Assembly: GCF_019059575.1 (NCBI RefSeq)
Contig: NW_024882905.1
Location: forward strand, 116,631 to 180,630
Source of the DNA: Amphibalanus amphitrite
Taxonomy: Eukaryota; Arthropoda; Thecostraca; Balanomorpha; Balanidae
Direction: 5' to 3'
Length of the DNA stretch: 64,000 nucleotides
Both the position numbers and the translations under genes were made by a program. Numbering within the stretch: the stretch's first letter is position 1; the number at the start of each line of letters is the position of its first letter. A model generated the notes under the pieces. That model ran no database searches. It was not told the origin of the DNA and was given only the letters and a program-made list of their open reading frames with translations. Of this stretch, positions 6,449-58,899 are shown piece after piece.

Positions 6449-9400
6449 CTGAAACAAACACACGAAAATGTAAGCTACACTGTTGTAGCCACAACAGCAC
6501 TATGCGTCTACGACAGTACAACGTGAATAATGGATGCGCTGAAAGTCCAAGGTCCCAGCTGACCGTCTGCGTGTTTGTTCACTGTTCGCCTAGCCAGTGT
6601 AGTAAAGACATTGCCTGATAACTGCTCATAATTACCCCGGTTAGTCAAGACAATGCAAAAATCCGTAGCTGTTTTCCGACAGGTAAGTCGTCAAATTCAT
6701 TTATGGGGCCACCGGTCCTGGTTCACTGGGGAGGTAGGTGGAGGTAGCGAGGGTGTCCGAGACCGACACGTAAAACCACCCCGACTTGAAGGAGCCGCGG
6801 CTAGTTAGCAGGGATGATCTTCTTACACCGACTACACACCAGCCGTCCCCTTCATGGTACGCCAGCGCGGCGGCGAAGGTGCGCGGCGGAGGTGCGGATC
6901 GCAACGTGCGTCGAACCAGGGCCAGGGACGCACGGGGCCGTGGTGGGTCAATGCGACAGCACCGTTGGCCGTCGCTATACACACACAAGCCCACGACGTA
7001 ACTGCACGGCCGCAGGCGATTACCGAGCTAACCCGTCCCGCGTACGAGAATGGTTTGATATATGTGACCATTTGTCACAATGACATAATGCCACACGCCT
7101 GGATACATATAACGAAGGGGGTTAGGGTATCGCCTCATATCGTCAATGCTCTGAGCGCTATCTGTGCTGATGCATATTTGCGATCCAATTCGGGCCTATG
7201 CTAGTCACAGAAAAAATAATTATTCAAACGAAGGCTAGGCGCTGGGCGGGCGGCGATGGAGCCCATCAGCCGGTTTTAGGTCAAATAGGTACTTGAGCGA
7301 CCGCCTTATCAGACCTTAACCGCCTTTTTAGCTGTTATCCAGGTGCGCATAGGTCCGTATGCCTGAATTCATCATACATGCATCCACGCATAAGCATGCA
7401 CATTTCACACAAACGGTAGCCTTGACGAAAGTGAAAAGTGTCGTCAGTAACCACTAATTACATAGAAGTGACTTCCGACAAATTCACAGCGGACCTTTGA
7501 TGTGAAGGGTCAACACTGAAAATGAGCGGACCAAACGAGCAATCTAAAGCACTCGGTCGTGCCCAGTTGAAAAAAAGCTCAGTGACGTATTTGTTGCCGA
7601 CAAACTGCACTAGGTAGTTGGTGTTGCGGCTCATTTCGGCTCTGATCGTAGCTGCCGGGCCGGGCCGACTCGTGATCCCGGCCGGCGCCGCTCCACGCCG
7701 CCGCCGCCCCCATCCCCCTGCCATGCCGCCGGCAGATGGGCCGTCCTCGAGAGAGTTTATGGCAGTGATCGGGTGACGGGACGCTTCTCTCTCCCTGCGA
7801 CCGTGTTCTACAGCTGCAGTTGTATGAAAGGATGCGCTGTTACCGGAGGGACTGACCCGGGGGGAGGGGGTGGGCTGGTGTGGCGTCGCACGTGGAACTG
7901 TGTCCCCGGCGGGCCGGAGCCGTTATGCCGACATGTGCCGACCGCGTGGTAGGGTTACCAGGACGCTGTGTAGTGTGTAGCTTCTTTGTTATTTCATTAC
8001 TTCCGTCGCCATCTGTGTCCTCCCGACCCAGTATATAAACGAGGCGGGAGCAACCCTCGCTCTCACTTCTTTACTTTTCGGCGCCGAGAGAGCACTGCCT
8101 CGCTCTCTCTGGCCAACTCTTCTTGTCAGTGATACTGTGTTGTCATCGCCTATTCGCCATCTGCAATACTCACCAGTTCGGAAGAATCTTGTGTTTGTGA
8201 ATGGTGAAGAGTGGAGTGCAGCGGCGGATAAGAGCACGGGGAGAGTGGCACACAGTTCGCACAGTCTTCTATTTCACGGTGACCGGGTCTACTTATCATT
8301 CCTATCTGATTCCTTATTTTCCTAATACCTCTTGCTCTCTGAAAAGAGGGTTCCTTTGTCTCTCTGTAAAGAGGGCTCTATATCTAGGTCTTAACATACT
8401 CTCTGTAAAGAGGGTTCCTTTGTCTCTCTGAAAAGAGGGCTCTGCATACCCTTTTAGGTCTTAACATGCTCTCTGTAAAGAGGGTTCCTTTGTCTCTCTG
8501 AAAAGAGGGCTCTGCATACCCTTTTTAGGTCTTAACATGCTCTCTGTAAAGAGGGTTCCTTTGTCGCTCTGAAAAGAGTGCTCTTAAACCTTGATCCAAA
8601 ATTATATTCATTCATATAGCATCCACTTCTGATATTATAAATTCCCAATTTCACCTCATTACCATATCAACCTATATCCTGTCAGGCCCCGGTCGCCACA
8701 CCAAATGATGCGAGACGTCAACACACACACAGTTATACAGTCCACTGAGTCAAGTTGAAGAACGTCTGCAACATTTTCTGGTCCTCCGGGCCGGATGATC
8801 CCGGCCAGAGGTGAGAAGTCAGAGGAAGAGGCCCAGAGGCACAGCCCGCAGTAGCAACCCTCGCCAGTGTTCGTCAAGTGGTATCAACTCGCCCCCTGCA
8901 GGATCTAAGTGAAGACTAATGGAAGATTCAAAGGAGGGAGAAGACAGAGAGATGATGCTACGGAGCGGCGACGGCGCTGGAGCAGAGAATGGACGTGCTG
9001 CTGGAGAGTTGGGAGCCCTGACGCCTCAAGACTCAACAGAGGAAAGCAACGGGATGGCGATGCCGCAGAACAGAGTCGATGGCGGAGTGAAGGAAGTAAC
9101 AGCCACCGGTGAGCTGAAGACCCTGAAGCTGCAGCGTGGTCGCAAGGCCGCCCTACTCACCCGTGCCTGTAACACGGCTGAGGTACAAATCGATCGCTGT
9201 GCAAGTGAAGAAGAACTTAGGAAGCGGCTTGAGTCCCTGAACACGGCCCTGGAAGGCTTCCTGGATATAAATGGTGATTATGTTGAAAAGGTACATGAAG
9301 TGGGTGAGCTAGAAGAGGCGGAAGAGTATGCCGCCCGGTTGACGGCACGGCACGCCTCAGCAATCAAGGCGATTAAAGAGGCCATCAAGTTGAAGTCCTC

Positions 9401-12400
9401 AGGCTGCTCAGCGTCCGAGACAGAGGGGAAGCCGATGTCGCTCGCTCCACGGCGAGACGGAAGTAAGGTCAGTGGGTCCCGGGCTTCAAAATGCTCAAAG
9501 GCCTCAACAGTGGCAAGGGAGGCTGAAATAACTGCAGAGATGAAGGCCCTCGAGCTGAAGCATCTCAGGGCAAGAAAGGAACGAGAAAGGCAGAAGAAAG
9601 AGCAAGAGGACATGCTGAGGAAGCAAGAGGACATGCTGAAGGAGCAAGAGGACATGCTGGAGGAGAAGGCTATGGAGGAAGAGGTTGAACGAGCGCTTGT
9701 GAAGGCACGTCTCTGCAAGGCAGCTGAGAGCGACCTTGAGTGGGAGAGACGGCACGATTTCGATGGCGAGAACGTCGCTCTGGTCCCTAGGGAGTGCAAT
9801 GTGGCGGAGGGTCCAGTAACGGTCGACCTGCCTCAGCGTAGACCACCGCCACAAGAACAGCGCCGAACACTGCAACCTGAGCAGCAGACAGCCGCAAACA
9901 ACGCCGAGCTGCCGAGCAGCAAGAACGAACAGCATCCCGCTAACTGGGTGACAGATGTTCGCTCTGAGCAACAGCCTTTGTTTCATCAACAATCGGCGTT
10001 TGTGAAGAGCATCCCACGTCTTACCCTACCGACGTTCCGAGGAAGCGCTCAAGAGTGGCCACGCTGGATTGGGCTGTTTAAAGCTTTGGTGCACAATCAG
10101 CCGTCGTTGTCAGACTCCGAGCGCATGGCACACCTTCAGAACGCGGTAGAAGGACCAGCTGCTCAAGCAATCAATGGCATGCTCTTCGACGGGGAACTCT
10201 ACCAGGAGGCTCTCAAGACCTTGCAGGAACGCTTCGGCAGAGAGGAAGACATCATACAGGCCCACCTGCGGAAGGTCTTCACCTGCACCCCGCCATCCCT
10301 CATGGATCTCCCAGCCATGGAGCAATTCTACTCAGTCGTCCACAACACGGTGACAGTTCTTCGTAATCTGGGCTACTCAAGCGACCTAGCGAGCAGCGAA
10401 AACTTGAGAAGAGTGGTGGAGAAGCTACCAGTCGAGCTTTGTCGAGAGTGGGGCCGAGAAGTGCATAGGCTCCGGCCAGTGCGACCCACTCTGGAGGCGT
10501 TTAGCTCATGGTTGAAGATAGAAGTCGATGTCCTTAGCCACTCTGGCAGCCAGTTTGTCACAAACGACAGGACAGAAGCAGCCAAGTCCAGGGACGGTGG
10601 GACGGCAAGAAAGTCGGCATTCGCGACAGGCGTCACTTCTTCGGCAGATCCAGAATCCCGACGGGCATGCGTGGTGTGTGAGGACACGCACAAGCTCCCA
10701 GACTGCCCGACGTTCAAGGCCAAAACTACCGAGGCCAGAATAAATATCGTGAGCGCTAAGACACTGTGCTTCTCGTGTCTCGGAAAAGGGCACTGGAGCC
10801 GAAGGTGCAGGGTGGCCAGAAGGTGCGGTATCGAAGGCTGCAAGTTCAAGCATCATCCCCTGCTTCATGGCAACAAAGGACAAGCGGTACCCGACAAACC
10901 TCGCAAGGAAGAAGGCAGTAACAGCGCGCCGTTCGTGGCGGCTTCATTGAACGAGGAGACGGACACCCTGCTTCAGGTAGTTCGGGTCCAAGTCCATGGC
11001 ACCAGAGGCTCGAAAGAGGTTCTTGCGCTGCTCGATACCGGGGCGCAAACATCCCTCTGCCGTGAAGACGTTCTGCGCGACCTGGGGATCACCGGACACC
11101 GTCGCCAGCTCCGAATTCAAAATGTGGAAGGAAGTGGCGTCCAGAAGCCCTCGCAGTGCGTCTCACTGACCATAAGCGCACTGGACCCTGATGGAAGGAA
11201 GAGCGAAATCCAAATCCCGGAAGTGTGGTCCGTTCCAGCTCTCAACGTGACTGCCCCTGTGGTGAAAGGAAGCCAGCTCAAGGGATGTGAACACCTTCAC
11301 GGACTTGAGTTCCCACAGTACGACGGTGGGCAAGTGGAACTACTTATCGGAGCGAACGTCTTAGAAGCGGTCCTGCAAAGAGAGACGCGTGTCGGACGCC
11401 CGAATCAGCCAGTAGCAGTGAAGACCGATCTCGGATGGGCACTGACAGGATCGGTCTCGGCCATCGTTCACAGTAGCTTGCGCCAAGTCATGTCCACGAA
11501 GCTGCTGCTGACGGAACAGGAGGACGAGCGGTCTGCTGCTGTCAATGAAGGGCGGTCTACCGAGCCTTTCGGGACTGAGCGCTGCCAGACTAAACCCAGG
11601 TCAAAGGAAGGAGAAAGAGTGGTCAAACCGTTGGAGGAGAGCACAATCAGAAGTCAAGGACGATATAAGACCGGTTTGCTGGGGGCTCGATCGTCACCAG
11701 GCATCGCCAACTATGTCCTCAAAGAAACGCCCCAAGAGCACTGGAATGAAGGATGGACAGCGCCTCCGAGAGAACCCGAGCAGATCCAGCAAAGCTTCTG
11801 CATGGATGATTTATTGCTGTATGACGCAGATGTGGATACCGCCAAGCATCTGAAGCAAGGAGCAATCCGAGCCCTCTCTGATGGGGGATTCAAACTGACT
11901 AAATGGAGGAGCAGCCGGCACGAAGTTCTGGAAGGCACTTCGACCAGCGATCTGGCCTCCGCCTGGGTGCGCCGACGTTTGCAGCGGAGGAAACCTCAGG
12001 AGTCGTCTGGAAAGAGAACCTACAGCGGCACCAGGCGGCACGTCCCAGAAAAGATGAACCCGGCCGATGACTGCTCGAGGGGACTGTCTGCATCCGAAAT
12101 CACGTCCGAGAGCCGGTGGCTGAGCGGCCCAGCGTTCCTGAGCGACGATGAAGAGAACTGGCCGGCGCAAGCGCCACCGCCACCGCTGACGGACGACATG
12201 GAGGAGGTGAAGTCAAACATCCTGGCCAGCGTAGTGAAGGGCGGCGGCCAGCCGGAACGTCTTCAAGGAGCGCACTACTGCCGCTGTCGCCGTAGAGCAG
12301 CGACGGCGGTGTGATGAGATGCAGTTAGTGGATGTGCCGGAACGTTTGTCGTCTCCTTAGTGTGTGTGTTTAGAATGCATATCTAAACACAGGGGGGAGT

Positions 12401-50097: not shown

Positions 50098-53000
50098 GTG
50101 GGTCGACAATCGTCGTTTTCTACATTTACTTGTTGTTCTCGCAAGCAAAACTGGTTGTTAGTCACGATTACTTTTAAGATGAAGATCATTATTTCTTTTA
50201 AATCGTTCAAGTAGGCTTTGCTGGTGCCAGATGTCAAGTTTCTCATGTAGGTAACTCAAACTCGTCTCGTCACATCTCTGTTCGGATCCCTGTTGCCGTG
50301 GAAGGGTACCTAAAGGTTATCCATTATTACTTATGTGGTTAATGTCACACTATTTTTTGATGTGTTGTGCCATGCATTTGATGCTTGTGTGGGTAGTTTT
50401 TAGAATTATCACTAGATTTGCAACATTAACCCCATTTGGGCTTGGTCTGTTATTGTTTCCTGGCATGTTGACTTTAGATGCTATGATGCTAGGGTTTGAA
50501 GGAATATGCTCAGAATGTACGGATCTTGCGACTGCGAGATTGAGCGGTAGGTTTTGCACATTAACATTATGGTTATATCTCAGAAACAAATTGTTCTACG
50601 ATGAAGCCATTTTACATGATCATGGCCGGCTTGTGAACCAACAAGTCGATCGCATCTTCAACACTTAAAGCTGACGAAGATATAGACTGAAGTACACTAA
50701 ATTTTCTAGGTGCAAAACCTATAGCTAAAACCTGCTAGACCTTTACCTCAATTGGGCTGGGAGTAGGTCATATTAATTTCTAAGCTTTGTGAATTGGTCC
50801 TAAAGCCATTGAGACCTGAACTAAGGAGGATATTGAGATGGTCAAAGCGATTGAATTGAAGGATTATTGTTGAAAAATGAAAATAATTGTGTGCTGATAG
50901 TAAAGGAGTTGACCTATGGTTGCAACAAGTTAGTAAAAGTAGAATGTTTAGGGTCTGTTCCCGTCGCTCCTCCCAAAAAATCTCGGATGAGGTTGGATGA
51001 GCTTGGAGGAGAGCCGTTTCAGAGGAGCCACGGGAACATTTTCGCGAGGAAATCAGCTGTTTGCGGGCTGTAACGGTCGGCGATTTATGGCGCGCAAACA
51101 TAAATCAGGAGATAATTATCGCTTTCTTATAAAATAACCTTAGATTTATATCAAGCCTTACTATTTAAAGATATCCAATCGTCATCAATCTCTAAAATCA
51201 TTTCCACTTCCCTCAAATCTCATTTATAAACAATTCACTTTTGTATTACGTGCGCCAAATATGTCTACGCAAGAGCCTCCTCCAAAAAACCAACTTTCGT
51301 TTGGGATGAGGGAGGAGGCAAATAGTGGTGGTGAGATGTGAAATCAAGATGAGCTTGGAGGAGCTTGGAGGAGCGACGGGAACGATTTTTTGAAACGAGA
51401 GGAGGTTAGAGGAGCTTGGAGGAGGTTAGAGGAGCGACGGGAACAAACCCTTAGACAGTTAGCAAACTGTAACAGAGGGTAACTAAATAAGGTAGGTAGC
51501 TTATGTTGTCCACTGGCCTTATGGTGTTCCATCCACCACCACTAGTCAGTAAGAAAAAGGCTTGATGGATATATGTTTAGATTAGCTATGGATTAGCTAT
51601 TTTTGTTTAGTCAGGTTGATAATGTCACTTAATTTGTAGTGGCATTACTGAAATTTCATTAAATTTGTTAGTGTCATTGATATGTTAAGTGATTAGAGAA
51701 GAAAAATTCAACACTTCCTTTTAAACAAAATGTTACATTCTATGGATGGCTGGTCAGCTATGCTTTCTAGTCTACTTTAATTGTATAGTTACTTAGCTTA
51801 TTTAATGTTAGTATTGAATCATATTTACATTTATTATCAGGGATTTAAAAGTAACTTCTTTTAAATCCCTGATACTTCTTTGTTAAATAAAACACACAAG
51901 CGGCATTTATCATCAAGACTGAAATATCACTTATGAGCTTGAGTTATAGATTTTACTGAGAAGGCATTGTAGGAACAATGTTAAGTGCAGAGGCTCTATA
52001 CAAAGCACCAAACTCCATGCTTTAGGCCACAAAATTGGGCTGCTGTTGGAAGAACTAGCTTTAGTGTAAGGTGTGTTGCATAACTGGAGACAGTGTTCTA
52101 AAATTGAATTCTGGTTGAATATGCCAATGAAGAAAAAATCCTAGGATAAAAAAGGAAATACCCATAGTATTTTTGCTGAAAGGGCATTCCTCCATTTTCA
52201 AAGCAAATTGATAAGAGCAGGATTTAATCTAAGAAACTTGACAGGATCTGAAAGCAAAGGATGTGGATTCAACCATCAAGTGATAAGCTGTTTTATAGCT
52301 GATCAGCTGATAGCTGATTAGCTGTCAAATAGCTGTTTGAATACATAATAAACTTTCCAAAGATTAAATCATGCCACTTTTTGTTATTTTGGGGATGAAA
52401 ATATTTTCCTCATTAAGTGTGATTTTCCACCCTAAGTTCCCGTGCCATTTCTTTTCATTCCATTCCATTTCAAAATTCCTTAGGTAGTAGGTACTTGTAG
52501 TCACATGCCAATTGTAAACTTTTCTTTTGTAAAATCCTTTTAGTTAAGACTGCTGAGCTTGAGTCATTGCCATCAATGTGGCTTTAGGCCAGTTTTATTT
52601 AGGAAAACCTTCAGCAGCAGTCATTTTTGCCTGAAGTCTCAGTTGGATTTTTTCTAGTCCTCTTATTTTCTCGTATAAGTAGTTCATATTCAGCTGTTTT
52701 TCAGATTACCAGGAATAGCAGCTCACAGCTGGTATTTTTGTTTTTCTTTTCTTTAGGTGTCCACTGGTCTTCCTACCATATTTACCATTTAATATTTTTC
52801 TTTACCATTTATTGTTTTTCTACCTTTCTTGCCTTTACTTTTTTAATCGGTTTTGACATATGTATCAAAGGCGAGATGCATTGCTATTATATGTCAGTAC
52901 TAATGACAGTGGCTTTTTCCAGGCGAGAGGACCGAAGAAGCACTTGAAGCGTCTCAATGCCCCCAAGGCATGGATGCTGGGGAAGCTCGGGGGCCCGTTC

Positions 53001-56000
53001 GCCCCGCGCCCGAGCTGTGGCCCCCACAAGCTGCGGGAGTCGCTCCCGCTGCTCATTTTCCTGAGAAACCGTCTCAAGTACGCCCTGAACGGCACAGAGG
53101 TGAAGAAGATCCTGATGCAGCGATTTGTCAAGGTTGACGGCAAGGTCCGCACTGACGCGACCTTCCCCGCCGGATTCATGGGTGAGTTTCATGTTTGCAA
53201 ACTTGTACAGACACACTCATACACCCATCTGTACACTTGTGCAACATTACTCGAATCAGTCAGTTACCTACTTCTCCGGGCGCCCAAAAACCCCATTTCA
53301 TCATCATCATCATCAGTCAGTTACTTCAACATTGGGTTCAATGCGCTAAAGTCGTTACTTTGATGATCGTCGCTGGTTTCCGACGACTTTGGTCTGGTCC
53401 GTGTCGTTGCTCCTGCTGGGGGTGCAGTGGAGGTAGCAAGTAGTTGAAAGGGGTGTCCAAAGTGTTTGTTTTGCCTCGTTTGTTGCTGGCCATGTTGAAA
53501 ATGTGGTGTTGATGATCTTTCTCATCATATTCTCCCATGGCAACATGAAATGACCTAAACCAAGTGTTTTGTTCCTTTGAGCATCTCACTCCTAACTGGT
53601 CAGACATTCTGAGGCCCGTGTCTGTCGTGTGGTGGTCGTGTATGGCGTTGTATCACCAGCCTCATCAGCCGGTGTCTCTGCCCCCAGACGTGATCACCAT
53701 TGAGAAGACGGGCGAGAACTTCCGTCTCATCTACGACGTGAAGGGACGGTTCACCGTGCACCGCATCACCAAGGAGGAGGCATCGGTGAGTGAACCGGCC
53801 GGCCGGACAGCGCACCGTCGTGTTGAAAACGTGGGCACGATATACCACTTCTGTCCATGTTCTCCCGCGACTACAGAGAAGCGACCATAACCAAGTGGTG
53901 TGCTCCGCTGATCACGTCACTCCTAAACGGTCGGACATTGCTCAGCGGCTATGAACCTTTTTTAATCGATTAGCGTTTTGTATCGGCGACAGTGGGCTTT
54001 GGGTACTGTCTGCTATCGTCTCATCTATATTACTATTTGAGGAGGGTGCGTCTGTCCGTTACCGAGGTCCCGACTTGGTGCTGCTTTGCGTGGACTACAG
54101 GCCAGACCGTTGCACCTAGCCCGGTGAAATTTGCACAAATCATAGATCAAGGATGCGCGACGTGCCTTTGAGGGGTCTGACCTCGATCGGGTCGATAGGG
54201 AGCGCGTGGCGCGTGCCCAAAAAGTGCAAATTCGCGTCATAGACTTTACATGTATAAATCGGCTTGCGAAATCAGTCGAAAATGGCCAAATTTGCCCGAC
54301 ACGCGCCACGTCCCCGTGAAATATCTCGGTAACCGTGGGCCCGATCGGCACGGGGAAAACAGCATCGTGTAGATAATTGAACGGGCTATCGAATGGTGTG
54401 CGGTGCAGGGGATGGCACGCGCCACGTGCACTGGGGAGGGCACTTTTATTTGGAAAATTGACGTTTTGGACGGATTTCGGAATTTATATTATTTTCAGGT
54501 GACCGTCAGACGGAGCGAGTTGAAACAACGCCTATTAGCAATAAAAATGTACCGCCTCTCATGGAAAAATGTGAAAAGCTGATTGATCCAAATCAAGGTG
54601 GTACAAATCACGGGAGAAAATGGTGTTTGTCAATTTTGTGCCACTTTATTTATCACACGGGTTTGCTCCATGATCTGATATCTCTGGCAATTAAAAATTA
54701 GCACCGTTGGAAAGAGCATTCAATTCTGTCCAATATTCACTCTTCATTTTTGCATGACGGGCTACAGTATTCTTAAAAATGTAAATGTTCCAAACCATTA
54801 CATCGTCATTTTTAGCGAAATTCATCGATGGCCCTCAAAAGACTTCACGCCAGTTTTCGAATCATTCTTAAGTAGAACGCATGATAATACGACACGGGCA
54901 CCTCGATGCGATGGATCTTTTTTGTTTCACTACAAAATGTTTGGCCGTCAAAAAGCAATCGAACGAAATGGACACCAACCAAATCGACACAGACCAACCC
55001 AATACCCACGGGTCAAAAATAACCCTTCTTTGCGTTGCGGAGCACGCGGGTAACCCTAGTCTTCCCTGTATTCTGGGCTCCTCCATACCATCATACTACC
55101 AGGCTGTTGCATGAAATAATTCGTGTCAGGCACCTGGAAACCTCGAGGCTGATTCACGACCCGCTCGGTAACGTCTCTCCGTCTGCCCGCCCGCAGTACA
55201 AGCTGTGCCGCGTCAAGGAGCTGCGCGTCGGCCCCAAGGGCATCCCCAACCTGCTGACCCACGACGGTCGCACGATCCGCTACCCGGACCCGCAGATCAA
55301 GGTCAGCGACACCATCCAGCTCGACCTGGCCACCGCCAAGATCAAGGACTATCTCAAATTCGACACCGGTGAGTTCCGTAGGGCGGCTAGGTGTGTTAGG
55401 GTCGGTAGGGTGGGCTGTGAGCGCGTGGGACACAAAGCCAGTTCGAAGACGCGCGGCTGTGCACTGCGGCCGCGTGTTCAAAAGCTCGGCGACAGTGATG
55501 GCTCGCCGACGGTCGCTGGCCCCGGCCCACATCTGGGGTCAGCATTACCAATGACGAGTACAATTCGTTTGAGCTGCTATGCTACCTGCTAGGAGAGTTT
55601 GCTGATCAACTACCAGTGTGTTTGTGTCTGTGTCTCAGTGTCTGAACTGTAGGTAGACCACCAACCGGGGAGTTTCGCCCGATACCGTGTGTCTGTGTGT
55701 CAGTGTCTGTGCGGCTAAACTGCCAATGTGTGCATGTGGCGCTCGACTGCCACGGATTGTGTGCGGTGTGTTCTGGTATACTAATGGTGTGGGTATGACA
55801 GCAGTGCACAATGCACCTGTCCTTTACATATGTTACCATGAGTGTGAGCAAGTGTGGAGTTTGTTGGATGGGCGAGGGGACGAGAGGTGGGAGACTGCAC
55901 CCGGCCATTTTGTGATTCGGTCGGTGGCATTCACACGAAGCCATTGTTTATCAGGACTGTGCAACAGTTGGGGAGGCTGGTCAGCCTCGGACGTTCGAGC

Positions 56001-58899
56001 TCCGAGTCCGGACCGGCCGAATCCATATTACGTCTTGCGTCCAGAAGCCAGTCACAAGCCGTTCAGTCGTCATACTCCAGCGTAACTTACTCAGCTCGAT
56101 TCTTAGTTGAGCAGCAGGCTGTGGTTACCTTTAGATTGTGCATAGTTTTACGATTATGTTACTCAGCTTCTTTTTCGGGCAAAGCTTTTGCAGATGTGGA
56201 TATGATTGTGGAGCTTCTCATTTCTGTCGAACCATGGGATCGTTATAATGCGCATATCATGCCCAGGGATAAGTCTAGGCTACAATCTCAATGTTAGGAA
56301 TAAATTTGTGCGCATTCCAGGGTATATCGCCTGAACAGATGATCCGTCATAAATTCGTCGCATTATACGCCGGTGTTCGTAAACTGAGGCAAATAAGAGG
56401 GCTATTATAAATGTTATGCATAGCAGCTCATAGATGACAGTGGACTTGATAGACCTGCGGCAGAAGTCTACTGTTATCGATTATTGCACAGCTTGATAAA
56501 TACCGATGCCAGTTCGAAGACGCGTGTTCATATTTTCAGTGGACGCGTGTTCAAAAGCTTGGCTATAGCATCCTCTTTCCAACGGTCGCTGGCCTCTGTG
56601 CCCGTCTGAGGGCAGCATCACCAATGGACAGGACACGCGCAGACGATATTTTGTCCTCCCGAGGATCTAGGGTTGCAACGGTGATAGATTGTCGGCGGTG
56701 TGTAACATCACTTCGCCCTATTCACTACAATTCACGAAACTCAGAGAAATAGTCTGACTGAATTTTATCAAATGAAAATGTTTGCAAAACCGTCAATTGG
56801 TTGAACTTGAGAAACGTCTGTTCTTCAGCTTTGGCCTTGTGAAAAAAAAAACTTAAAATATTTCCGGATATGCGGTGTATAATATGATCCATGTGCTAGG
56901 ACGTGTCGGCTAACACATGGTCGTAAGCCAGAAACATTTTACCTACAATTTGTATGGAGCTTTATTTGTTGCTTATTGTGCTGTTAGCTGTCGTTCTCCT
57001 ACAGTGAAGTATGTTATAAAACTGCAGTATACATACACACTTCATAGGCAACAGTGGACCTACAGGGTATACATCTATGCAGGGGTCTAGCTGTTGTCGA
57101 TGCACAACTTGACAAATGTCATTTGCCAGTTCGAAGACGCGTGTTCATATTTTCGGTGGACGCGTGTTCAAAAGCTTGGCTATAGCATCCTCTTTCCAAC
57201 GGTCGCTGGCCTCTGTGTCCGTCTGAGGGCAGCATCACCAATGGACAGGACACGCGCAGACGACGCGCTGCCGACCTTGATGACTGCTTTGTGTTTTGTG
57301 GGCGTCTGTCTGCTAGTTATCTGTGGTTTCGTGTTAGCATTGCGCCGTGGCTTTGACGTTAGATATAAAGCGTTGTCAGTGCCTGTTGTCACTGTTAGCT
57401 AGGACCAGTTGCACATTGTCCGTGAAATGTTCCTACGTAAACTAACGCTCCTCTCCGTAACTGTCGGCAGGTAACCTGTGCATGATCACCGGCGGCCGTA
57501 ACTTGGGTCGTGTCGGCACCATCATCCACCGGGAGCGTCACCCTGGCTCGTTCGACATCGTGCACGTCAAGGACACGGCCGGACACAAGTTCGCCACCAG
57601 GTACGGTCCCCCCCCCCCCCTCCGCGACACACGGGCTAGTGACGCCAGACCGAAGACGCGCCGCCACCAACTCTGTGGAGGCGCGTTCAAAATCTTGGCA
57701 ACAGAAACGGCTCTCCAACGGTCGCTGGTTTTGTGATTCTCGTCCAAGAGCAGCATTACCAATGGAGTGTACAATTAGCATTTTTGTTCAATTTCCTGTA
57801 TATTTCTGTTAATGTCACCGTGAACAGTGGTGTATCGTTGCTCTCATTACGGAGCGAGCGAAGCGAGCGGAGTCTTACGTAGAATAACGGAAATTTCTGA
57901 GTATGAGCGGCCGGCCGGCCGGCCGTGCGGACGCTTTTGCGAGGCTTATATCTCAGCAACCACTTGACCGATTTACATGCGGTAATTTTTGTAGGGTAGC
58001 TTCATTCCTTCTACCAAGTATTGGACTATTCCCGATGCATGTGGGTGACCCCTTATGCACGTGCCACGTGCAAAACGAAGAGGTGTCACTTTTGTAATTG
58101 TTGCAATATCTCGGTAACTACTTGGCCGATTGCGCTGAAAGTTGGCATGTAGGTAGGCACCCACTAGGCACTGCATATCCATGTGCCAGAGTTGGGGTGC
58201 CGCTGCACGTGCGCACGTGCAGGGGTCGTTTCCAGATCTCGAGAACGGCTCGACCGATTGCGCTCAAATTTGGTACACATTTAGGGACCGGTTAGTAGGG
58301 TGCCGTGCACAAGTCAGTTGGGACCCATTTTGCACGTGCGCACGTGCAGGGTGCCGCTTCCAGATCTCGAGAACGGCTGGGCCGATTGTGCCCAAATTTG
58401 GCACATCGCTAGAGACCGGTTAGTAGGGTGCCGTGCACAAGTCAGTTAGAGGTACCCCCTCGCAATTTCGCACGTGCAAGGCCCACCCTCTCGCTCGCTC
58501 CGTTAGTCGCCCCAAAAGGCGTTATACTGGTGTTATTTCACGGTAGGCACATTGCCTTTCTGAGTGCATTTTTGAAGGTGAACTTATATGCTCGAATTTC
58601 GATCTTTTATACTCATGATGTATTTTATCGCAGTTTTTTATTCAAAGCCATTTTTATTCTGTTTAGTGTTCACTTTTTCTGGTTAGTGTCCGTGTAGCGT
58701 CCTCGTTGCGTGTGGTGGCTGGTGGCAGCCACCTCTCGCAGCACATGTGTCGCTAACTGCGCTCTGTGCCGTCGGCAGGCTGCACAACGTGTTCGTCATC
58801 GGCAAGGGCACGCGCGCCTACGTGTCGCTGCCCAAGGGCAAGGGTGTCAAGTTGTCGATCGCCGAGGAGCGCGACCGGCGGCTGGCGCAGAAGAGCTAG
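50095..58899 (+). CDS. 40S ribosomal protein S4 (eS4), 6 exons, 260 aa
   Basis: eS4 is a structural protein of the small ribosomal subunit that binds 18S rRNA. Exons: 50095-50097 (ATG, probable), 52923-53181, 53688-53785, 55197-55368, 57471-57600, 58779-58899. All phases agree, giving 260 aa, the family's usual length. Hallmarks in order are [42 protein letters not shown], the S4-type RNA-binding region, [32 protein letters not shown], the KOW-like [20 protein letters not shown], and a C terminus ending [11 protein letters not shown]. It ends TAG. Introns 2-5 contain six H/ACA snoRNA-like segments, and intron 5 also has a MITE. No AATAAA was seen close downstream. Confidence 0.95.
50951..51450. 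mobile_element. Harbinger-like MITE, 500 bp, TSD TTA
   Basis: The termini GGGTCTGTTCCCGTCGCTCC and its near complement are flanked by TTA (50948-50950 and 51451-51453). GGAGGAGC-type subterminal repeats lie at both ends. It is non-coding; the termini resemble those at 1074-1240. Confidence 0.65.
51836..51873. repeat. Perfect 16-bp inverted repeat with 6-nt loop
   Basis: ATCAGGGATTTAAAAG and its exact complement flank TAACTT. It lies in RpS4 intron 1. Confidence 0.8.
52923..53181 (+). CDS. RpS4 exon 2
   Basis: It starts [11 protein letters not shown] after GGCTTTTTCCAG, in place of the second codon, and ends GFM + G before GTGAGT. It encodes residues 2-87. Confidence 0.96.
53489..53609 (+). 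ncRNA. H/ACA snoRNA-like, family A copy 1 (RpS4 intron 2)
   Basis: The 5' hairpin has an outer stem GCCATG/CATGGC (53489-53494 and 53535-53540) and an inner stem ATGTGGTG/CATCATAT. The H box is ACATGA (53543-53548, ANANNA). The 3' hairpin has outer TGACC/GGTCA and inner AGTG/CACT plus TGTTC/GAGCA. ACA sits at 53604-53606 with three bases after. Both hairpins have unpaired pockets as in pseudouridylation guides. The RNA target was not identified. Confidence 0.65.
53688..53785 (+). CDS. RpS4 exon 3
   Basis: The phase-1 acceptor CTGCCCCCAG gives [20 protein letters not shown] followed by [13 protein letters not shown]. The donor GTGAGT is only about 31 nt before a snoRNA-like segment. Confidence 0.96.
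53817..53940 (+). ncRNA. H/ACA snoRNA-like, family A copy 2 (RpS4 intron 3)
   Basis: It is homologous to 53489-53609 across its length (shared GTTGAAAA, ATGTTCTCCC-like, AACCAAGTG, TCACTCCTAA, GGTCRGACATT). The 5' hairpin has outer GTCGTG/CGCGAC and a 9-bp inner stem ACGTGGGCA/TGTCCATGT. The H box is AGAGAA (53875-53880). The 3' hairpin has outer CGACC/GGTCG. ACA is at 53935-53937 plus three bases. Many stem changes are compensatory, supporting a conserved fold. Confidence 0.65.
53941..55196. other. RpS4 intron 3 remainder
   Basis: From about 54040 to 54480 lies a repeat with ATATCTCGGTAACC and several CACGTGC-type motifs, distantly like the MITE at 44150-44821. The rest shows nothing recognisable. 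Confidence 0.4.
55197..55368 (+). CDS. RpS4 exon 4
   Basis: It starts [15 protein letters not shown] after CCCGCCCGCAG, contains [18 protein letters not shown], and ends FDT + G before GTGAGT. Confidence 0.96.
55437..55565 (+). ncRNA. H/ACA snoRNA-like, family B copy 1 (RpS4 intron 4)
   Basis: The 5' hairpin closes GCC/GGC with an 8-bp inner stem (55450-55457 with 55469-55476). The H-box position reads ACAGTG (55492-55497), one base off ANANNA. The 3' hairpin has outer CTCG/CGAG and a 9-bp inner stem GCTGGCCCC/GGGGTCAGC. ACA is at 55560-55562 plus ATT. It is the most diverged family B member but keeps the fold. Confidence 0.65.
55566..56507. other. RpS4 intron 4, spacer between snoRNA copies
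   Basis: A TG/TGTC-rich stretch lies at 55615-55720. Nothing else was recognised. Confidence 0.4.
56508..56638 (+). ncRNA. H/ACA snoRNA-like, family B copy 2 (RpS4 intron 4)
   Basis: The 5' hairpin has outer GCCA/TGGC and an inner palindromic ACGCGT stem. The H box is ATAGCA (56565-56570). The 3' hairpin has outer TCCA/TGGA plus CCT/AGG and inner GCTG-CCTC/GAGG-CAGC. ACA is at 56633-56635 plus CGC. It differs from copy 3 at about two positions in 131 nt. Confidence 0.68.
57125..57255 (+). ncRNA. H/ACA snoRNA-like, family B copy 3 (RpS4 intron 4)
   Basis: It is near-identical to copy 2, with the same hairpins, H box ATAGCA (57182-57187) and ACA at 57250-57252 plus CGC. Some flanking similarity upstream (ACAGTGGAC...) shows a recent local duplication. 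Confidence 0.68.
57471..57600 (+). CDS. RpS4 exon 5
   Basis: It encodes [20 protein letters not shown] followed by [20 protein letters not shown] and ends FAT + AG before GTACGG. The acceptor is CTGTCGGCAG. Confidence 0.96.
57644..57776 (+). ncRNA. H/ACA snoRNA-like, family B copy 4 (RpS4 intron 5)
   Basis: The 5' hairpin has outer GCCA/TGGC, inner CGCGCC/GGCGCG and a CCAC/GTGG tip. The H box is ACAGAA (57701-57706, perfect ANANNA). The 3' hairpin has outer CTCCA/TGGAG and inner GCTG/CAGC. ACA is at 57771-57773 plus ATT. It is the best single example of the consensus. Confidence 0.7.
57848..58531 (-). mobile_element. GCACGTGC-rich MITE in RpS4 intron 5, copy 2
   Basis: It is a highly similar, inverted copy of 44150-44821, with the same ACGGAGCGAGCGA end, the TTTTGGGGCGACTAACGG end and the internal GCACGTGCGCACGTGC palindromes. 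Base differences are scattered. Confidence 0.65.
58779..58899 (+). CDS. RpS4 exon 6
   Basis: It encodes [20 protein letters not shown] followed by [20 protein letters not shown] and TAG at 58897-58899. The acceptor is CCGTCGGCAG. Confidence 0.96.

Follow-up and report, generated by a model that had tools for sequence, protein, structure and literature searches.

The H box of canonical box H/ACA snoRNAs reads ANANNA, and as a rule the guide pocket of these RNAs lies 14–16 nt before the box. Clusters of H/ACA genes in Drosophila introns were reportedly described by Huang et al. in 2004, and, judged by that title alone, they resemble the locus reported here in having several H/ACA genes in introns. 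In Drosophila, 27 ribosomal protein genes host snoRNAs (PMC2246290), and in just 7.3% of the human H/ACA families with at least two expressed members are all of these found in one gene (PMC8178906). Among the closest described systems is SNORA16/ACA16, represented in human by SNORA16A and SNORA16B, and 28S U4412 is the sole target that PMC3766210 gives for SNORA16A. Yeast snR46 (25S U2865) and ACA16 (28S U4412) are listed as counterparts in PMC3542256. According to PMC1766470, snR46 belongs to a set of guide RNAs acting around the peptidyl transferase centre, and yeast that lacks it is hypersensitive to sparsomycin, shows increased nonsense suppression and binds aminoacyl-tRNA more tightly.

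Organization of the snoRNA array in RpS4

The window under study, the whole 64,000-nt stretch of Amphibalanus amphitrite DNA, carries coding exons 2–6 of RpS4 (eS4) with their introns at 52923..58899 on the forward strand, as located by tblastn. The best solved relative of the protein encoded by the joined exons is chain AE of 4v6w, 40S ribosomal protein S4 (E 4.7e-142), in a Drosophila structure. Four segments lie in two introns of this gene, all on the forward strand: intron 4 (55369..57470, 2102 nt, GTGAGT...CGGCAG) carries copy 1 (w1, 55437..55565, 129 nt), copy 2 (w2, 56508..56638, 131 nt) and copy 3 (w3, 57125..57255, 131 nt), and intron 5 (57601..58778, 1178 nt, GTACGG...CGGCAG) carries copy 4 (w4, 57644..57776, 133 nt). 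The flanking exons were placed by tblastn and the splice sites were read from the sequence; the intron numbering counts a presumed first exon with the start codon. Intron 5 also holds a tandem repeat of 128-nt units (58204-58447, 1.9 copies, 88% matches).

These segments are intron-encoded box H/ACA snoRNA genes and form a four-copy family. In 4/4 cases the sequence begins with GCCAG, folds as a pair of hairpins and closes with ACA followed by three bases. Our re-reading of the sequence bears out the preliminary description, which had placed four such segments of 129–133 nt in introns 4 and 5 of RpS4. A genome search with copy 3 as query, which may miss more diverged copies, returned nine matches, four on the window contig and five on contig C172 (copies labelled h). 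The element ACGGTCGCTGG of the 3′ hairpin, already claimed as invariant, is the same in all four window copies and in 5/5 copies of the second locus, and the ACA box is present in 9/9 copies (in copy 1 at 55560..55562). In respect to the H box, the motifs listed earlier stand for copies 2 and 3 (ATAGCA twice) and copy 4 (ACAGAA), whereas the ACAGTG proposed for copy 1 (55492..55497) departs from the canonical ANANNA; overall, ANANNA is found in 7/9 copies and ACAGTG replaces it in w1 and h1. In the 5′ pocket, the guide arms of which correspond in copy 1 to UCGAAG (55443..55448) and UCAAAA (55478..55483), the first base of the right arm is followed by the H box after 14 nt, as read from the alignment.

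Probable relationship to the SNORA16 family

At the curated Rfam cut-offs the whole window yields zero matches. When the whole-window cmscan is relaxed to E values up to 10, SNORA16 (RF00190) becomes the top match of the entire window, on copy 4 (31.5 bits, E 0.025; E 0.0021 in a 5.5-kb search), and the SNORA16 matches listed window-wide are three array copies and none elsewhere, copy 2 being absent from that list. At relaxed thresholds the model matches 4/4 window copies (21.9, 19.8, 21.7 and 31.5 bits for copies 1 to 4) and 5/5 copies of the second locus (20.3–26.8 bits). With 19.8 to 31.5 bits, 9/9 copies stay below the gathering score of 35, and most single-copy matches are weak, with E values of 0.1 to 3.6 in eight of the nine. 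A search of the whole genome with Rfam families returned no SNORA16 match, but as the controls likewise matched nowhere, this search is uninformative. In view of their scores, we name the array copies likely homologues and functional counterparts of SNORA16/snR46, and not Rfam-grade members of the family. The family, which the preliminary description did not recognise, can be recognised by covariance-model search as of the SNORA16 kind, though below the Rfam cut-off. A near-palindrome elsewhere in the window (51831-51878) matches mir-1544 with 26.2 bits on one strand and 23.7 bits on the other, also below the respective cut-off of 46.

The likeness to SNORA16/ACA16 comprises the two-hairpin H/ACA anatomy, the 5′ arms CGAAG and UCAAAA, the 3′ element ACGGUCGCU and a full-length model match (1-135). 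The differences are that all nine array copies score below the Rfam cut-off and that several copies occur within one gene; also, the host is RpS4, whereas human SNORA16A resides in SNHG12 (PMC3766210). Yeast snR46 is related through its printed standing as the ACA16 counterpart and through sharing, by numbering alignment, the same target U. A partial likeness is found to trypanosomatid TB11Cs5H3 (RF01544), whose model matches the 5′ hairpin of 4/4 window copies at 19.4–24.6 bits (24.6 for copy 2 and 23.7 for copy 3), below cut-off; the match covers model positions 1-65 and the consensus arms UUCGAAG and GUUCAAAA are the same. Unlike SNORA16, this model matches the 5′ hairpin alone, at 30.1 bits or less against a cut-off of 50, and it is listed for 3/5 copies of the second locus.

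Other repeats lie close by, such as the 128-nt repeat in intron 5, and one could thus regard the segments as a structured repeat element without snoRNA function. Yet 9/9 genome matches to the copy-3 query fall on two RpS4 loci, a count that diverged copies could escape, and the H/ACA anatomy, the family match and the target pairing described below also speak against a mere repeat, so that we find this reading hardly credible.

A candidate target in the large-subunit rRNA

The preliminary description had left the target open after considering the 3′ pocket. A candidate emerges instead from the 5′ pocket, whose arms UCGAAG / UCAAAA face the 28S sequence UUUUGA-U-C-CUUCGA: the left arm pairs with CUUCGA and the right arm with UUUUGA of human 28S, and the target U and the base next to it remain unpaired, as an H/ACA pocket requires. 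Pairing with human 28S (UUUUGA[U]CCUUCGA) is complete (12/12) in copies 1–3 and in 6/9 copies overall, and amounts to 11/12 in the remaining w4, h4 and h3, the first two having one left-arm mismatch and the third one changed guide base. The human sequence scanned was the 209-nt segment printed in PMC12477938. Among dinucleotide shuffles of this segment, 0/2000 equalled the 12/12 pocket, 4/2000 the 11/12 pocket of w4 type and 0/2000 that of h3, a comparison made after the fact because the segment was located by looking for the suspected target motif. The covariance-model match does not depend on this pairing, and the family it indicates has an established site. On our own numbering alignment with the yeast sequence, we take the target U to be human 28S U4412 and yeast 25S U2865. 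The name 28S-3327, that of a fly counterpart, did not occur in the papers listed by a literature search.

We consider, with a probability of roughly 0.93, that each segment belongs to the SNORA16/ACA16 (yeast snR46) type of intron-encoded H/ACA snoRNA and would guide modification of this 28S U. As judged from sequence, this predicted U of the large-subunit rRNA is probably modified by the snoRNAs of the array.

The rDNA of the barnacle is present in the assembly, as evidenced by 14 matches to an 18S pattern. The three rDNA stretches that were fetched contain long N blocks, and in one of them (L024) such a block stands right after the 5.8S, in the expected place of the 28S. The 16-base core GATCCTTCGATGTCGG has 0 matches in the 807 Mb assembly, a zero that carries no weight in view of these N blocks. 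Scans for 28S on viral and prokaryote contigs found nothing. The 28S of the species presumably shares the human target sequence (UUUUGAUCCUUCGA). A piece of 28S rRNA of about 95 nt is seen at L012 5468-5563 (contig C223) and near position 1500 of L010, with an Rfam LSU score of 35.7 bits, below cut-off; by eye it lies between inverted flanks, like a small mobile element with captured rDNA.

Target readings on the small subunit

The earlier lead to the 18S sequence GGCCGU amounts to a different interpretation, namely a new H/ACA family with its main target in the 18S, addressed through the 3′ pocket. In its best-fitting register the left arm AACGGU indeed pairs with GCCGUU adjoining U1341 of the barnacle's own 18S, giving a score of 7.0/12; however, the right arm is mismatched beside the U, and 35/150 shuffled 18S sequences score equally or better. 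Considering also that the 5′ pocket fits the known SNORA16 site with 12/12 pairs on human 28S, we regard this 18S lead as abandoned and such a family as very improbable. In total, nine pocket readings, of which seven concerned the 3′ pocket and the other two the 5′ pocket, were scanned on the own 18S and 5.8S, each with 150 base-composition shuffles of the 18S, and none came out clearly above chance. For the 5′ pocket the best score on these two rRNAs was 6/12, with 35/150 shuffles as good, nothing beyond chance. The two that came nearest to it, the 3′ readings GGUCGC/GCAUUA (8.0; 11/150 shuffles) and ACGGUC/UACCAA (7.0; 14/150), were discounted considering that seven were tried.

The 3′ pocket, made up of the left arm ACGGUC and the right-hand side CAGCAUYACC, is nearly constant across the copies. 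All nine copies share the left-arm element ACGGUCGCU of this pocket with the SNORA16 consensus, while between lineages 51/87 sites in loops and further unpaired regions differ. Against the 209 nt of human 28S the best of three readings of this pocket scores 5.0/12. A role of the 3′ pocket as a second working guide with a target of its own would be a tentative reading, and we consider it somewhat doubtful.

Conservation of the fold and of the pockets

The fold z-scores of copies 1 to 4 are −3.64, −4.21, −3.29 and −4.58, and shuffles folding as well number 0/200, 0/200, 1/200 and 0/200, respectively. The shared two-hairpin structure, itself derived from the four window copies, was evaluated on the nine-copy set formed by these plus the five from C172: standard pairs occupy 96.5% of 315 cells, a level equalled by 0/500 shuffles, and when the same structure is slid along the alignment 33.9–42.9% is paired. 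Changes on both sides occur at 9/35 pairs of the nine-copy alignment (0/500 shuffles equal), in agreement with the former claim that stems are kept while their sequence changes; this covariation draws on three lineages (copy 1, copies 2/3 and copy 4) and hence on few events, copies 2 and 3 contributing little as their bodies are 98% identical. The number of further pair types in the nine copies is not above that of shuffles (16 versus a mean of 15.1; 197/500 as high).

Contig C172 is collinear with the window from 63994 down to 20370, with diagonal rows of more than 400 nt that are 84–98% identical and separated by gaps, and with two further rows, off the diagonal, that are about 79% identical. 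The RpS4 exons compared between the two loci encode an identical protein sequence. The second locus is probably the other haplotype, which is the simplest reading; the alternative is a segmental duplication. Intron 4 holds four copies on C172 (L011, C172:284600-294500) versus three in the window, likely a haplotype polymorphism.

Between the two loci, the snoRNAs have diverged less than their surroundings. Bodies differ at 20/527 sites (3.8%) and the 100-nt flanks at 101/772 (13.1%; Fisher P 4.8e-9), counts that were summed by hand over four matched pairs, leaving out the partnerless copy h2x and gapped sites, and in which the upstream flanks of copies 1 and 4 include some exon, lowering the flank divergence. 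An exception is the downstream flank of copy 1, which is as conserved (95/99 alike) as the body (123/130). By site class, the loci differ at 10/123 positions in loops and unpaired regions, 8/256 in stems, 1/48 in the 5′ pocket (where the columns for the right arm are one base off, in an invariant stretch), 1/24 in the H box, 0/64 in the 3′ pocket and 0/12 in the ACA box. The lower divergence of the bodies would fit purifying selection. Copies 2 and 3, which are 98% alike in the body, retain 65% and 42% likeness in the flanks, and this fits either constraint or gene conversion.

These comparisons bear on the possibility that part or all of the array consists of pseudogenes in decay or of retroposed snoRNA copies, and not of working genes. 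Certain features would be compatible with decay, since a guide base has changed in h3, upper-stem pairs are broken in h4, and the H box of w1 and h1 is non-canonical. Nevertheless, bodies have diverged less than flanks, and between lineages differences amount to 2/36 sites in the 5′ pocket, 4/48 in the 3′ pocket and 0/9 in the ACA box, in contrast with 51/87 in loops and other unpaired positions. Moreover, all copies are sense-oriented in a ribosomal protein gene, and the repeat unit of copies 2 and 3 extends about 48 nt upstream of the snoRNA with 91% identity, a pattern more in keeping with tandem duplication than with retroposition. Overall, we hold such decay to be unlikely and favour working guides of the SNORA16 kind.

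Proposed biogenesis and significance

We infer that the array is expressed and processed and that it modifies rRNA. RpS4 transcription would supply the RNA, splicing would free the intron, and trimming to a protein-bound core would yield the snoRNA, the released RNA being packed with the H/ACA core proteins. The 5′ pocket UCGAAG / UCAAAA would then hold the large-subunit sequence UUUUGA-U-C-CUUCGA, so that the U, which by the numbering alignment lies close to the peptidyl transferase centre, would be converted into pseudouridine. The copies may have arisen by tandem duplication within the gene and would be largely redundant. As three copies share one intron, at least one internal cut would be needed, or else not every copy would mature.

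In biological terms the array is largely ordinary, being a known kind of snoRNA with a predictable target; its annotation is new as far as we have seen, the discovery is modest, and the tandem arrangement is unusual. Through this array, a conserved guide for modification near the peptidyl transferase centre is extended to a genome in which the Rfam cut-off misses SNORA16. The locus is also an easily read example of H/ACA genes that have seemingly multiplied inside a single intron by tandem duplication, in a number that differs between two collinear loci.

Upstream of the middle copies a spacer hairpin is partly kept (window 56438-56507 and 57040-57124; L011 3735-3815, 4324-4400 and 4941-5020). 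In its consensus 3/20 pairs have changed on both sides, many are broken in one or two sequences, and the covariation term is unfavourable; the hairpin may be part of the duplicated unit only, or may act as a release signal. Farther away in the window, at 8919-12314, an open reading frame of 1131 aa contains zinc-knuckle-like and protease-like stretches and resembles, by eye, the gag/protease region of a retroelement.
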